The notes under the pieces are model-generated. The model saw only the letters and a program-made list of their open reading frames with translations, had not been told where the DNA came from and ran no database searches. Shown here piece after piece: positions 54,516 to 64,000 of a DNA stretch of 64,000 nt. The stretch covers positions 1 through 64,000 of the forward strand of contig CAMCYR010000003.1 of assembly GCA_945885475.1 (NCBI GenBank). The letters are read 5' to 3'. The translations under genes were made by a program, and so were the position numbers. Within the stretch, counting starts at the first letter, position 1. Every line of letters begins with the position of its first letter. The DNA comes from Chitinophaga pinensis. GTDB taxonomy: Bacteria > Bacteroidota > Bacteroidia > 2-12-FULL-35-15.

Positions 54516-54603
54516 TTTTTTATTTTTTTGTACAGCCAAAAGTACTAAAAATCCTCGAATTTTACCAGTCATACAATTTTAAACAGAAATCCGTTTAAAA
54601 TGG

Positions 54604-54611
54604 TATTTTTG
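54604..54611 (+). promoter_or_regulatory. TATTTTTG -7 box for the amidohydrolase
   Basis: TAnnTTTG ~19 bp upstream of ATG 54630. Confidence 0.5.
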
Positions 54612-54629
54612 TTTAGAACAAATTTAGAT

Positions 54630-57600
54630 ATGAAAAAAATAATTCTATTCCTTCTTGCTATTTCTTATGCCGCTGCAATTGTTGCTCAAGAAACATTTCC
54701 TGTAAACGGAACGTCCAATAAAAATCATGTGATCTATGCCTTCATCAATGCGAAAGTAATTGTTGATGCAGATCAAACCATTGATAACGGAACAATAGTT
54801 ATAAAAGACGGACTCATCTTTTCGGTAGGGACAAAAATTCCTATTCCGCAAGGTTCAGTGATCGTTGACTTGAAGGGCAAAACAATTTACCCCGGGCTAA
54901 TTGATGCATATACTTCTTATGGCATGCAGGAAACAAAACGCTCATCCGGTGGCGGCTACCCGCAGATAGAAAGCAATACAAAAGGAGCTTACGGCTGGAA
55001 TCAGGCGATTAAGGCTGAAAACGATGCAATAAAAAACTTTACTAAAGATACTAAAAGTGCAGAAGAATATCGGAAACTGGGATTCGGAGCAGTACTCACC
55101 TTTCAGAAAGACGGAATTGTGAGAGGTTCAGGAAGTGTGGTTACATTATCGGATAATCGTGAAAACGAGCTGATCCTAAATGAAAAGGCTGCGGCCATGT
55201 ATTCTTTCGACAAAGGCACTTCGGCTCAGGATTATCCTTCTTCATTAATGGGCTCAATAGCTTTATTGCGTCAAACGTATCTGGATGCAAGTTGGTACAA
55301 GTCGGATAAAACAAAAAAAGAATTTAATATTTCGTTGGATGCATTTAATATGCTTCAATCTCTGCCTCAGATATTTGAAAGTAACGACAAATTAAATGCA
55401 TTGCGTGCGGATAAGATCGGTGACGAATTTAAAGTAAAATACATTATCAAGGGAAGCGGCAACGAATACCAACGATTGGAAGACATCAAGTCAACAGGAT
55501 GTAAATTTATTATGCCTGTGAACTTTCCAATCGCCTATGATGTAGAAGATGCTTACGATGCGAATTATGTTTCATTGTCGGAATTAAAACACTGGGAAAT
55601 GGCTCCTGTTAATCTATTTGCAATGGAAAAAAACGGAGTGGTTTTCGCAATTACAGCATCCGACTTGAAAGACAAAAAAGATTTCTGGAAAAATTTACGT
55701 AAAGCCATCTCTTTTGGTTTATCTGAAAAACAAGCACTTCTTTCGCTGACAAGCATTCCGGCAGAAATGTTGAACTTAAGCGACAAGATTGGTAAACTAA
55801 AAGAAGGAATGATCGCTAATTTCATAATCACTTCCGGTAATTTATTTGATGAAAAAACGATCATTTATGAAAACTGGATCCAGGGAAATGCTTATAAAAT
55901 AAATGACTACAACACGATTGACATCAGAGGGAATTACGACTTTTCATTTGGCCCCGAAAGAGTGCTGCACCAGCTGAAAATTGAAGGTGAATTAGATAAA
56001 CTAAAAGCAACCTTACACACTGATACAGCCAAAGCAGCTGTTAACATTACAGTTTCGGGATATTCTGTTTCAATGAGTTTCAATACTATTAATTCAAACG
56101 GCACAATCCGTTTGAGTGGAAACATTTCTTCTGATCCATTAAAAATGAATGGAACTGGGCAGACACCGGATGGATCTTGGATAAATTGGAGTGCAAATTA
56201 TTCGGGGACGGTAATAGCAACGGTAAAAAAAGATTCAATAAAAAAGGATTCATTAAAAAAAGAAGCAATCAAATTCGGGCAAGTGATCTACCCATTTTGT
56301 GCTTACGGAAAGCAGAGTGATGAGCGCGAAGGATTCAGTAAATATGTCAGTGACTTTAAAACACGATACGATGCTGTTTTAATCAAACATGTTACGGTTT
56401 GGACGAATGAGGCAGAAGGAATTTTAAAAAATCAGGATGTATATATTACCGAAGGGCGCATTGTGCGTATCGCTGATGACATTGGAGCACCAAAACTGGC
56501 CTTCGCGAAAGTAATTGATGGAACAGGAAAACATCTTACTGCAGGTATCATTGATGAACATTCACACATCGCCTTAAGCAGCGTTAATGAAGGAACACAA
56601 GCATCTAGTGCAGAAGTGCGCATGGGAGACGTAATCAATTCGGAAGACATTAATATTTACCGTCAACTTTCAGGAGGTGTAACAACATCCCAATTGCTTC
56701 ACGGCTCGGCAAATCCGATTGGTGGCCAATCAGCGATCATCAAATTACGCTGGGGAAAATCTCCTGAAGAAATGAAATTTGAAAGAGCGGATGGCTTCAT
56801 CAAATTTGCTCTGGGGGAAAATGTAAAACAAAGTAACTGGGGAGATGTAAACACCATTCGTTTTCCTCAATCTAGAATGGGAGTTGAACAAGTGTACTAT
56901 GATGCTTTTACACGTGCAAAAGAATACGAAATAAAACAAAAAGCATATGCAGCACTGTCTGAAAAAGCTAAAGCTACTGCTGTACCTTTCAGAAGAGATC
57001 TTGAACTCGAAGCTGTTGCAGAGATCCTGAATAAAAAACGATTTATTACCTGTCACTCATACGTTCAGTCGGAAATAAATATGTTGATGCATGTTGGCGA
57101 TTCAATGGGTTTTAAGGTCAACACCTTTACACATATTTTAGAAGGCTATAAGGTAGCGGATAAAATGAAAGCACATGAGGCGGGTGCCTCAACGTTCAGC
57201 GACTGGTGGGCCTATAAGATGGAAGTAAAAGATGCGATCCCCTATAATGCAGCATTACTTTCAAAAGCAGGAATTGTAACCGCAATCAATTCAGATGATG
57301 CAGAAATGGGACGAAGATTAAATCAGGAAGCTGCAAAAGCTATTAAATATGGCGGATTATCAGAAGAAGAAGCATTAAAATTAGTGACGCTTAATCCTGC
57401 AAAATTGTTGCACATCGACAAAAAAGTTGGTAGTATAAAAGTTGGTAAAGATGCGGATGTAGTGCTTTGGTCAGATAATCCTTTATCGGTTTATGCGAAA
57501 GTTGAAAAGACAATTATTGACGGGCAGATTTATTTTGACGCAGAAGAGGATGTTAAAATGAGAAGCGCAATTCAAAAAGAAAGAGCACGTATCATTCAGA

Positions 57601-57713
57601 AAATGCTGGAAGAGAAAAAAAGCGGAGCGCCAACTCAAAAACCGGTTATGAAAAGAAAACAATTATTTGAGTGTGATACAATGCAGGAAGATTATTTAGA
57701 GATAGCAGAATAG
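54630..57713 (+). CDS. Secreted double-domain amidohydrolase-family protein
   Basis: Signal peptide MKKIILFLLAISYAAAIVAQ; N-terminal degenerate amidohydrolase-like half; C-terminal half GIIDEHSHIALSS...ITCHSYVQSEI...THILEGYKVADKMKAHEAGAS...INSDDAEMGRRLNQEAAKAI. Confidence 0.9.
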   Translation: MKKIILFLLAISYAAAIVAQETFPVNGTSNKNHVIYAFINAKVIVDADQTIDNGTIVIKDGLIFSVGTKIPIPQGSVIVDLKGKTIYPGLIDAYTSYGMQETKRSSGGGYPQIESNTKGAYGWNQAIKAENDAIKNFTKDTKSAEEYRKLGFGAVLTFQKDGIVRGSGSVVTLSDNRENELILNEKAAAMYSFDKGTSAQDYPSSLMGSIALLRQTYLDASWYKSDKTKKEFNISLDAFNMLQSLPQIFESNDKLNALRADKIGDEFKVKYIIKGSGNEYQRLEDIKSTGCKFIMPVNFPIAYDVEDAYDANYVSLSELKHWEMAPVNLFAMEKNGVVFAITASDLKDKKDFWKNLRKAISFGLSEKQALLSLTSIPAEMLNLSDKIGKLKEGMIANFIITSGNLFDEKTIIYENWIQGNAYKINDYNTIDIRGNYDFSFGPERVLHQLKIEGELDKLKATLHTDTAKAAVNITVSGYSVSMSFNTINSNGTIRLSGNISSDPLKMNGTGQTPDGSWINWSANYSGTVIATVKKDSIKKDSLKKEAIKFGQVIYPFCAYGKQSDEREGFSKYVSDFKTRYDAVLIKHVTVWTNEAEGILKNQDVYITEGRIVRIADDIGAPKLAFAKVIDGTGKHLTAGIIDEHSHIALSSVNEGTQASSAEVRMGDVINSEDINIYRQLSGGVTTSQLLHGSANPIGGQSAIIKLRWGKSPEEMKFERADGFIKFALGENVKQSNWGDVNTIRFPQSRMGVEQVYYDAFTRAKEYEIKQKAYAALSEKAKATAVPFRRDLELEAVAEILNKKRFITCHSYVQSEINMLMHVGDSMGFKVNTFTHILEGYKVADKMKAHEAGASTFSDWWAYKMEVKDAIPYNAALLSKAGIVTAINSDDAEMGRRLNQEAAKAIKYGGLSEEEALKLVTLNPAKLLHIDKKVGSIKVGKDADVVLWSDNPLSVYAKVEKTIIDGQIYFDAEEDVKMRSAIQKERARIIQKMLEEKKSGAPTQKPVMKRKQLFECDTMQEDYLEIAE

Positions 57714-57728
57714 TTCCAACTAACGAAG

Positions 57729-58261
57729 AATAGGAACGTAGATTTTTATGATGGTTATTATTTTTTAAGATAAAAAAGTATTTATGATTGGAGATAATTA
57801 TAAGCATTCGGACTTAACTAAGAAAATAATAAAAGCTTATTATAATATTTACAATAATCTAGGGCATGGTTTTTTAGAGAAGGTTTATGAAAAAGCTATG
57901 ATTATTGAGTTGAAGAAACAAGGACTAGAATGTGAAACAGAAAAACCAATTGATGTGTTTTATGATAAAATATGTATTGGAAGTTATTTTGCTGACATCA
58001 TTATAGAAAACAAAGTTATCATTGAGTTAAAAGCATGTGAATATTTAATTGAAAAACACGAAATTCAATTAGTCAATTATTTAAAAGCAACAGAAATAGA
58101 AGTTGGATTGTTATTAAACTTTGGAAAGGAAGTAGAATACAAAAGAAAAGTATTATCTAACGATTTTAAAAGAAACATAACCCTAGAAAATATAAAAATA
58201 TCATAAGACACACAGCTATCTTTTTTATCCTAAAAAATCATAAAAGATCTATGTTCCTATC
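57729..58261 (+). mobile_element. GxxExxY/PDDEXK_3-type gene cassette bounded by imperfect terminal inverted repeats
   Basis: ATAGGAACGTAGAT-TTTTATGAT (57730) vs reverse complement of right end ATAGGAACATAGATCTTTTATGAT (58237-58260); inner arms ATTTTTTA[A/G]GATAAAAAAG (57760-57778, 58220-58238). Confidence 0.6.
57784..58206 (+). CDS. GxxExxY protein (PDDEXK_3 family)
   Basis: NLGHGFLEKVYEKAMIIELKKQGL (GxxExxY) and nuclease-like FADIIIENKVIIELKA (D...ExK). Confidence 0.93.
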   Translation: MIGDNYKHSDLTKKIIKAYYNIYNNLGHGFLEKVYEKAMIIELKKQGLECETEKPIDVFYDKICIGSYFADIIIENKVIIELKACEYLIEKHEIQLVNYLKATEIEVGLLLNFGKEVEYKRKVLSNDFKRNITLENIKIS

Positions 58262-58273
58262 AAACAAAGCACT

Positions 58274-59560
58274 ATGAGAAAATTAATCCTATTAACATTA
58301 CTAGTAACTTCGACTTTCACCTTCGCACAAAAAAGTGTGCTAATCATGAATGGTACAGCACATATCGGGAATGACAGTATCATCCAGAATTCCCTGATAG
58401 GATTGAAAGACGGAAAAATAGTTCTGGTAGCGGATGCTACAACAGCAAAACTCGATAAATCAGCATACGATGAAGTAATAGATGCGGGAGGCAAACATAT
58501 CTACCCGGGATTTATTGCTCCGAATTCAACGCTAGGTCTCACAGAAATTGAATCGGTGAGAGCAACAAACGACTTCAGAGAAACGGGAACAACGTTACCA
58601 AATGTCCGTTCATTGATCGCATATAATACAGATTCAAAAATAATCCCAACCGTTCGGAGCAACGGCGTATTGCTTGCGCAGATAACACCTCGTGGCGGAC
58701 TCGTTTCGGGTACATCGAGTATTGTTACACTCGATGGATGGAACTGGGAAGATGCTGCTTACAAAACGGATGACGGCATTCACATCAATTGGCCAACGAT
58801 ACAAAGTCGGAAGTATTTAGACGAGGACAATATTTATCCGGGGCCCTTTGAAAAAAACAAAGACTATGTCAAACAAACTGATCTATTAAAAAAATTATTT
58901 GCCGACGCAAAAGCATATACTGAAAGTGCGGATAAAGTAGAAGCTAATTTGAGATTTGAAGCAATGAAAGGGATTTTTTCAGGCACTCAAACATTGTTCA
59001 TCCACAGCAATACAGTAAAAGAAATGGTGGAAGCGATTAATTTTGCGAAACAAAACAAAATCTCAAAAGTAGCTATTGTCGGAGGAAAAGAAAGCTGGAT
59101 GATAACAGACCTGTTAAAACAAAATGAAATTGCGGTGATCATTTCCCGTCTGCACGATCTCCCAACCTACCAGGAAGATGATATTGACCTACCCTATAAA
59201 CTTCCCTATTTATTGCAAAAAGGAGGCGTACTTTATTGCTTGAATAACGAAGGAGACATGGAAGCAATGAATACGCGTAATCTTCCATTTTTAGCAGGGA
59301 CAGCCGCAACCTATGGATTAACCAAAGAACAAGCATTGAGATCGATAACACTAAATACGGCAAAGATATTAGGAATTGATAAATCAACAGGAAGTATCGA
59401 ATCGGGGAAAGATGCTACTGTATTTATTTCTACAGGAGATGCCTTGGACATGCGAAGCAACAATGTGGAAAGAGCATTTATAAAAGGAAGAGATATTGAT
59501 CTGAATAACGATCAGAAAGTTTTGTACGAAAAATACAAAACGAAGTATGGGATAAAATAA
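58274..59560 (+). CDS. Secreted amidohydrolase-like protein lacking the canonical HxH
   Basis: Signal peptide MRKLILLTLLVTSTFTFAQ; IDAGGKHIYPGFIAPNSTLGL; C-terminal LGIDKSTGSIESGKDATVFI. Confidence 0.9.
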   Translation: MRKLILLTLLVTSTFTFAQKSVLIMNGTAHIGNDSIIQNSLIGLKDGKIVLVADATTAKLDKSAYDEVIDAGGKHIYPGFIAPNSTLGLTEIESVRATNDFRETGTTLPNVRSLIAYNTDSKIIPTVRSNGVLLAQITPRGGLVSGTSSIVTLDGWNWEDAAYKTDDGIHINWPTIQSRKYLDEDNIYPGPFEKNKDYVKQTDLLKKLFADAKAYTESADKVEANLRFEAMKGIFSGTQTLFIHSNTVKEMVEAINFAKQNKISKVAIVGGKESWMITDLLKQNEIAVIISRLHDLPTYQEDDIDLPYKLPYLLQKGGVLYCLNNEGDMEAMNTRNLPFLAGTAATYGLTKEQALRSITLNTAKILGIDKSTGSIESGKDATVFISTGDALDMRSNNVERAFIKGRDIDLNNDQKVLYEKYKTKYGIK

Positions 59561-62410: not shown

Positions 62411-63382
62411 TCAAATCCATCCTTTCTCAAAAATATCTTTCGTGTGATACGTAATAATGATGTTTGCTCCAGCTCTTGCAAAAGCATACATATTTTCCAT
62501 TACAATTTTTTGCTCATCGATCCAGCCTTTTTGGGCAGCCGCCTTTACCATAGAATATTCACCGGAAACATTGTAACAAGCGATTGGTAAAAGTGTATGC
62601 TGTCTTAAATTAAAGATCACATCCATATAAGCCAAAGCAGGTTTTACCATTAAAATATCTGCTCCTTCCGCCTCATCCAAAAGCCCCTCTGTCATCGATT
62701 CATTTCCATTGCGATGATCCATCTGATACGACTTACGATCACCTTTTTGCGGAGCAGAATCTGCTGCTTCGCGAAACGGACCGTAATAAGCAGATGCATA
62801 TTTTATAGAATACGACATGATGGCCGTATTCTCAAAACCATTTTTATCTAGCAAAGAGCGCATCGCGGCAATTCTTCCATCCATCATATCACTAGGCGCA
62901 ACCATATCTGAACCCGCTTGTGCGTGCGCCAATGCCATTTTTGCTAATACTTCCACAGAAGAATCGTTGTGTACATATTCATCGTGCAAAATTCCACAAT
63001 GTCCATGTGTTGTATATGCACACACACAAACATCCGTGATCACATACAGCGTATCACCAAACTTCTCCTTCAGCGCTTTTACTGCTTTCACAACGATAGA
63101 GTTATTGCTGAAGGAAGAACTGGCGTCTACTGTTTTATGTTCACCAACACCAAAAAGTAAAATTTTATTAATCCCAATCTGCAGGCCGTGTTCAACAGCT
63201 TTCAACAATTCGTCAACCGAATAATGATTGATCCCTGGCATGGCATCAATCGGATGAATCACTTTTTCACCATCCACTACAAAGTAAGGATAGATAAACA
63301 TATCTTTTGAAAGACGAGTTTCAGCAACCATTTCACGAACAATTGCATTTTTTCTGAGTCTGCGGGGGCGTTGTGTTATCAT
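62411..63382 (-). CDS. hemB: Delta-aminolevulinic acid dehydratase
   Basis: RPRRLRKNAIVREMVAETRL; VCVCAYTTHGHCGIL; MVKPALAYMDVI. Confidence 0.97.
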   Translation of the reverse strand: MITQRPRRLRKNAIVREMVAETRLSKDMFIYPYFVVDGEKVIHPIDAMPGINHYSVDELLKAVEHGLQIGINKILLFGVGEHKTVDASSSFSNNSIVVKAVKALKEKFGDTLYVITDVCVCAYTTHGHCGILHDEYVHNDSSVEVLAKMALAHAQAGSDMVAPSDMMDGRIAAMRSLLDKNGFENTAIMSYSIKYASAYYGPFREAADSAPQKGDRKSYQMDHRNGNESMTEGLLDEAEGADILMVKPALAYMDVIFNLRQHTLLPIACYNVSGEYSMVKAAAQKGWIDEQKIVMENMYAFARAGANIIITYHTKDIFEKGWI

Positions 63383-63396
63383 GTGCTACGTATTAT

Positions 63397-63536
63397 TGGA
63401 ACGCGGATTTTTTATGATGGTTATGATAAAATATGATTTTTTCTGTGTTGGTTTATGATAACTTATAATTTTCTTAACGCATTAAATATTTTATCATTTT
63501 CAATCATAAAAATCTTAACAAATCTTCGTTCCTATT
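63397..63536. repeat. ORF-less MITE-like inverted repeat sharing ends with the GxxExxY cassette
   Basis: Left ATTGGAACGCGGATTTTTTATGATGGTTATGATAAAATAT; right end reverse complement AATAGGAACGAAGATTTGTTAAGATTTTTATGATTGAAAATGATAAAATAT. Confidence 0.65.
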
Positions 63537-63541
63537 CTATC

Positions 63542-64000
63542 TTATTGAATTCCGAAAACCGCTTCTGCTAATCCAACTTCATCGAATGATGCTGGCAGCA
63601 AACAATTTTCAATTTTATATTCTAGTAATTTTTTCTCAGTTGATTTTCCGATTGCGATCACTTTTTGCGAAGCAGAGATCTTTCCTTTTTCAAAAAAAGA
63701 TTCAACGTTTGACGGACTTGTAAACACTAAAACTTCAGTATCCGGAAGTGTTGCATTTTCTTTTTTTACTGTTTCATAAACAACCAGGTCCGTAAGTTTA
63801 GTGGCGTCTTCAAATTGTTGCTGAATAGTGCGGAGTCCACCTTTCGCCTGAGGAAACAAGACGGTTTGATCACCAACCGTTTTAGCGAATTTTTTTCCCA
63901 CCACTTTTGTATCCGGCACAGAGCCGACAAAAGCTGCGTTTCTGTTGTGTTTTCTCAACTCCTGTTCGGTTGATTTTCCAATCACTCCAAATTTAGTTTT
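63542..64000 (-). CDS. hemD: Uroporphyrinogen-III synthase, N-terminus beyond the right edge (partial)
   Basis: VLVFTSPSNVESFFEKGKISASQKVIAIGKSTEKKL; frame stays open to the window end (KTKFGVIGKSTEQEL). Confidence 0.85.
   Translation of the reverse strand, partial: KTKFGVIGKSTEQELRKHNRNAAFVGSVPDTKVVGKKFAKTVGDQTVLFPQAKGGLRTIQQQFEDATKLTDLVVYETVKKENATLPDTEVLVFTSPSNVESFFEKGKISASQKVIAIGKSTEKKLLEYKIENCLLPASFDEVGLAEAVFGIQ

Follow-up and report, generated by a model that had tools for sequence, protein, structure and literature searches.

What is a 140-aa GxxExxY gene doing between two amidohydrolase genes, enclosed by ends that repeat each other in inverted orientation? The question is raised by a short unit in the window, i.e. 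the 64,000-nt stretch analysed here, which opens contig CAMCYR010000003.1 of a Chitinophaga pinensis assembly (genome G000, 3.06 Mb). A previous sequence-only reading had described the inverted ends, assigned the gene and proposed a nuclease-like protein that acts on, or mobilises, its own ends, making this a minimal one-gene mobile or homing-type unit. We examined the locus, the GxxExxY genes of 36 congeneric genomes (many of them draft assemblies) and GxxExxY loci from other genera.

The element and its predicted nuclease

The features of the locus, and of a related gene-less unit in the same window, are collected in Table 1. The inverted ends around the ORF are present and had been accurately described.

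Table 1. Positions of the GxxExxY unit, its neighbours and the gene-less unit in the window
Feature	Position	Strand	Remarks
GxxExxY unit			531 bp: left arm, 140-codon ORF and right arm
Left (5') arm	57730-57778	+	49 nt; terminal GGAACGTAGAT, then TATGAT-type words
Right (3') arm	58220-58260	-	41 nt; inverted counterpart of the left arm
GxxExxY gene	57784-58206	+	140 aa; predicted PD-(D/E)XK (RecB/Cas4-like) nuclease fold
Amidohydrolase gene, 5' side	54600-57713	+	amidohydrolase family match
Amidohydrolase gene, 3' side	58274-59560	+	amidohydrolase family match
Junction between the amidohydrolase genes	57714-58273		holds the focal element; 18-82 bp in several congeners
Gene-less inverted unit	63395-63535		141 bp; focal ends; between hemB-like and hemD-like genes
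hemB-like gene	62411-63382		name from reading of the ORF
hemD-like gene	63542-63985		name from reading of the ORF

The left arm reads ATAGGAACGTAGATTTTTATGATGGTTATTATTTTTTAAGATAAAAAAG and the right arm, read inverted, ATAGGAACATAGATCTTTTATGATTTTTTAGGATAAAAAAG; the two differ by substitutions and one insertion or deletion. Local alignment of the upstream flank with the inverted downstream flank gave a score of 44, against 18 (maximum 29) for shuffled flanks and against a median of 20, a 90th percentile of 26 and a 99th percentile of 46 for neighbouring genes, the tail of this last control being conservative because some control genes carry an arm themselves. The focal arms exceed chance similarity, and their inner pair is the most complementary (92 %) among the window's inverted pairs of at least 22 nt. 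No Rfam match was obtained in 57600-58400, PADLOC returned none for the focal element (i.e. no indication of an anti-phage role), and a scan of the window for additional runs of at least three identical CNNA[GT] words was equally negative.

The GxxExxY assignment and the amidohydrolase neighbours proposed from sequence were both confirmed, the focal protein matching TIGR04256 (135.5 bits for a cut-off of 35, E=1e-39) and PF13366, PDDEXK_3 (140.7 bits for a cut-off of 22, E=3.5e-41). The PD-(D/E)XK-like motif put forward at the same time is borne out by conserved active-site residues, E32, D71, E81, K83, Q95 and Y99 of the focal protein being invariant or nearly so (E81xK83, Q95xxxY99). The QxxxY motif is characteristic of the RecB/Cas4 branch. 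The best solved Foldseek matches of its AlphaFold2 model (pLDDT 88) were SSO0001 (4ic1), which we take to be a Cas4 protein, LHK-Exo, lambda exonuclease and the Holliday-junction resolvase Hjc, with TM values of 0.4-0.5. By its residues and modelled fold, the focal protein is a RecB/Cas4-like PD-(D/E)XK nuclease, with an activity that is predicted. No solved homologue was found by sequence, and no transposase family occurred among the Pfam or NCBIfam matches of the gene. GxxExxY genes were found in all 36 congeners; G000 itself holds three further ones, with words of CACAGAT, CGCAGAG and ACGAAT type.

Word arms across the GxxExxY family

Each arm is a run of a 5-7 letter word that follows the scheme C-N-N-A-[G/T] (e.g. 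CACAGAT, CGCAAAG, CACTAAG, ACGAAT and TATGAT), with a spacing of mostly 7-10 nt. Over 131 distinct GxxExxY loci of the 36 congeneric genomes, the arm score, which is biased towards matched arms and whose low threshold was passed by 111 of the 131, had a median of 44; the control medians were 18 for shuffles and 20 both for 268 neighbouring genes and for swapped pairs. Nearly every GxxExxY gene in the genus carries inverted ends, with a variant of the word that is its own. For 82 loci from other genera the median was 32 versus 18 for the control, and 44 of them lay above the control 95th percentile; the cross-phylum scan, which returned 80 loci, was queried with a sub-alignment of one clade, so that clade is what it samples. 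Similar words were seen at loci in Pseudomonadota, Planctomycetota, Acidobacteriota, Cyanobacteriota, Thermodesulfobacteriota, Methanobacteriota and others.

In a maximum-likelihood tree built from 104 proteins, 100 of which had a word class, this class changed 18 times, against a mean of 66 and a minimum of 59 in 300 label shuffles. A gene always carried with unrelated flanks is thus not what relatives display: the arm word tracks the protein clade. Simple linkage could explain part of this correlation and, since linkage alone could produce it, words were compared with spacers, and arms with each other within elements. Between the two arms of 80 elements, mismatch was 6.5 % in words vs 20 % in spacers (p=1.5e-22), which points to sequence recognition of the words. 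Arms within one element scored about 48 at every protein distance, whereas same-side arms of relatives whose proteins are 45-60 % identical were at background score. At the focal junction, the distance was 0.18 within elements, 0.24 between same-side arms of different genomes and 0.26 after random re-pairing (minimum 0.22 in 2000), the within value being favoured by taking the best pair where arms are tandemly duplicated (G001, G013). Arms are more alike within an element than to their orthologues, the opposite of what inheritance alone would give; something therefore keeps them matched, be it selection or copying. G-U-compatible arm mismatches on the sense strand were not in excess (88 vs 102), which gives RNA pairing no evident role in this matching.

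Gene-less copies and occupied or empty junctions

The ends are not confined to the focal locus. They are dispersed, recurring without the gene elsewhere in the genome and in relatives: besides the unit next to the hemB-like gene (Table 1), G000 carries an inverted pair on contig 6 (~72998-73218) and, on contigs 2 and 24, arms that are single or decayed. Every gene-less copy read was either a single arm or an inverted pair about 120-220 bp long. As to an origin of the window's gene-less unit by deletion from a gene-bearing one, the unit matches a full element in its left end and in some sub-terminal sequence, but its core scores no higher than shuffles. The pattern GGWACGCAGATYTNTWAWGATTTTTATGAT, with up to three mismatches, was found in 18 of the 36 congeneric genomes (maximum 61, in G013), and the same pattern read backwards, as a control, had no match in any of the 36. 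Genomes with a focal-clade gene had a median of 2 gene-less copies vs 0 in those without (p=0.007, in a post hoc test without phylogenetic correction, with the clade assigned by hand and the arms of gene-bearing copies counted in). A clade member is present in G018, G012 and G032 with no copy by the GGWACGCAGATYTNTWAWGATTTTTATGAT pattern, and G015 (64 % complete) has 10 copies though it has no clade member.

Most of the 61 matches in G013 are a focal-end variant, GGAACGCAGATCAAAAATGATTTTTATGAT, with an attached CGCCTGTGGCG mini-palindrome (L222-L239), and some of these GGAACGCAGATCAAAAATGATTTTTATGAT variants lie in tandem arrays, ~200 or 440 bp apart. This abundant variant differs from the arms of the GxxExxY gene at G013's own amidohydrolase junction.

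Empty sites, which the sequence-only reading had left to be looked for, do exist in relatives. About half of the amidohydrolase junctions read in 30 genomes hold a GxxExxY element; those without it start from 18 bp and include single arms in G014 and G007, a 3' remnant in G006 and apparent arm traces, GCGTTCCGAT, in G005. At occupied amidohydrolase junctions the GxxExxY gene is broken in G031, G033, G016 and G017. From these arm remnants and broken genes it follows that the element is old and decaying there. Single arms are tandemly duplicated beside the amidohydrolase-junction element in G013 (L034), G001 (L037) and G012 (L041).

At the hemB-hemD junction, G007 and G017 have a complete focal-clade GxxExxY element, several genomes have the gene-less unit, five have only 15-22 bp, and G013, G014, G027 and G028 have other, mixed word repeats. 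Additionally, a 596-bp element-bearing stretch in G031 corresponds to 33 bp in G000, with both sides 97-98 % identical. The junction orthologous to the G031 element (L119) is occupied by a GxxExxY element in G031, G007 and G014; in G001 (L169, C45) it holds what looks by eye like a RAYT-like gene, between CACCCCTGTCAGGGTTTCAAACCCTGACAGGGGTG palindromes.

Over 90 elements, target-site duplications showed no excess over swapped flanks. None of 210 same-genome GxxExxY pairs (in draft genomes) was at least 80 % identical, the maximum being 73 %, and 48 cross-genome pairs reached that level; since near-identical gene copies are lacking within a genome, it is the gene-less repeat that multiplies. 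GxxExxY was nearly absent from plasmids (8 of 72,556 records, searched with one query from another clade). The homing-type unit of the original proposal found no support. The minimal one-gene mobile unit, with no target duplication and no near-identical copies of the gene in the same genome, should be recast as a nuclease gene kept in single copy, to which a dispersed repeat family belongs.

Likeness to RAYT/REP systems and competing explanations

In RAYT (TnpA-REP) systems, a single-copy gene lies between two inverted flanking repeats of a type correlated with the protein, and gene-less doublets and singlets are dispersed in intergenic DNA (PMC2817692, PMC3116915). Likewise, GxxExxY genes lie between paired inverted repeats that also occur, dispersed, in gene-less form, the repeat type correlates with the protein, and the gene is single copy, no same-genome pair reaching 80 %. 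The focal system is nevertheless not a RAYT, as it has neither an HUH transposase nor a palindromic REP: its protein has a predicted PD-(D/E)XK RecB/Cas4-like fold, unlike the HUH tyrosine transposase of RAYT, and its arms are tandem short words, unlike REP palindromes with a GTAG-type tag. A further difference is the presence of GxxExxY arms in many bacterial phyla and in archaea. No description linking GxxExxY to cognate inverted word-repeat arms was found in the open-access PMC literature, and the comparison suggests an unreported nuclease counterpart of RAYT/REP repeat systems.

The best explanation, to which as a whole we give about an even chance, is a RAYT/REP-like model in which the GxxExxY gene makes up a single genetic unit with its two inverted arms of repeated words. 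In such a RAYT/REPIN-like partnership, the nuclease-fold protein, probably oligomeric, would bind the short word repeated in each arm and would cut or nick DNA at the paired inverted arms; cutting would then lead to gene-less arm pairs and single arms being copied into short intergenic junctions, while the GxxExxY gene itself would stay essentially single copy. We infer the binding of the arms, their cleavage and movement, and the role of the protein as producer of the gene-less copies. The lack of target duplications, the genomes in which copies and clade members do not coincide, the deviating G013 variant and the arms of unrelated genes described next all count against the model.

Arms of this design are also found beside other genes. 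Four-helix 23S_rRNA_IVP genes (PF05635) of the genus had a median arm score of 36 over 26 loci, some of whose ORFs were chosen by a rough motif, a value that stands without a separate control set; their arm words were AGTTGGC, GAGATNT, AAGTCAAA and AGTATCAGGTA. The IVP genes L015-L018, L020 and L021 (G000) and L322-L350 lie outside rRNA where inspected, and most lie between inverted arms made of a word repeat of their own, such as CAGTTGGCAGTTGGC and TAGATTTGAGATGTGAGA. The weakest PF05635 match, L022 (G000:C82), is directly 5' of an ORF that appears by eye to encode a reverse transcriptase and may therefore belong to a diversity-generating retroelement as its Avd-type accessory gene. Since IVP genes, unrelated to GxxExxY, have analogous arms, such arms may not be the work of a nuclease, which is the chief ground for caution about the part played by the GxxExxY protein; a common rule may hold for several small selfish genes, GxxExxY and IVP. 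The S23p gene of a 23S intervening sequence (IVS) in Coxiella lies next to tandem GACAGAT heptamers (PMC4990558). The focal element resembles this IVS as a small gene between inverted ends but differs from it in lying between amidohydrolase genes and not inside 23S rRNA, in encoding a PDDEXK_3 rather than an S23p/IVP protein, and in that GxxExxY arms show no sign of selection for RNA pairing.

The sharing of one arm design by non-homologous four-helix genes favours a passenger role, in which the word repeats are spread by another enzyme and the nuclease plays no part in mobility; GxxExxY genes would then have come to lie within inverted pairs already there, or would regulate themselves with the arms as operators. 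The same junctions also gather several unrelated repeat families, such as the RAYT-like gene with REP-like palindromes in G001, other palindromes in G027/G035/G003 and the mixed word types at hemB-hemD in G013, G014, G027 and G028. We nonetheless regard this role as unlikely, given the strong link between word class and GxxExxY clade and the family-wide conservation of the nuclease residues, which neither a passenger nor a pure repressor would need. Somewhat less likely again is an ordinary self-mobilising element, a small TIR transposon with GxxExxY as its transposase and the gene-less copies as its MITEs. A gene between inverted ends, MITE-like gene-less pairs that share these ends, and presence or absence at near-identical loci would all fit, but the 90 elements without target duplication, the absence of a near-identical gene pair within one genome and the near-absence from plasmids in the single-query search do not. 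GxxExxY elements also differ from IS/MITE elements in having no known transposase fold, and their ends match within each element yet differ between relatives and clades, unlike those of MITEs.

We consider least probable, and improbable in itself, an element acting at the RNA level, whose transcript arms would pair and be processed by RNase III; splicing or processing would remove the unit from the operon mRNA, and the insertion would be tolerated for that reason. RNase III excises IVS that carry an S23p gene and end in inverted repeats, which provides a precedent (PMC4990558), and the RNA of the unit folds better than shuffles (z=-3.1), although long inverted repeats of any kind fold well. 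The lack of excess of sense-strand G-U-compatible mismatches speaks against it, as do spacers that diverge three times as much as words and the many sites with single arms and gene-less copies.

Finally, the partnership of GxxExxY with its arms can be extended to the whole family. It is conceivable, though we put it somewhat below an even chance, that GxxExxY proteins of bacteria and archaea are sequence-specific nucleases, each with a clade-specific word and two-armed repeat, that drive selfish intergenic repeats, with IVP as a second, independent driver. If true, this would explain much of the repetitive intergenic DNA of CGCAAAG, CACAGAG, CACTAAG or ACGAAT type in these genomes, and unrelated nucleases would have given rise to REP-like partnerships on more than one occasion. 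The GxxExxY family is widespread and has no assigned function; a cognate repeat gives it a direct and testable one, and natural variation of the word over many protein-word pairs could make the recognition code readable from sequence.
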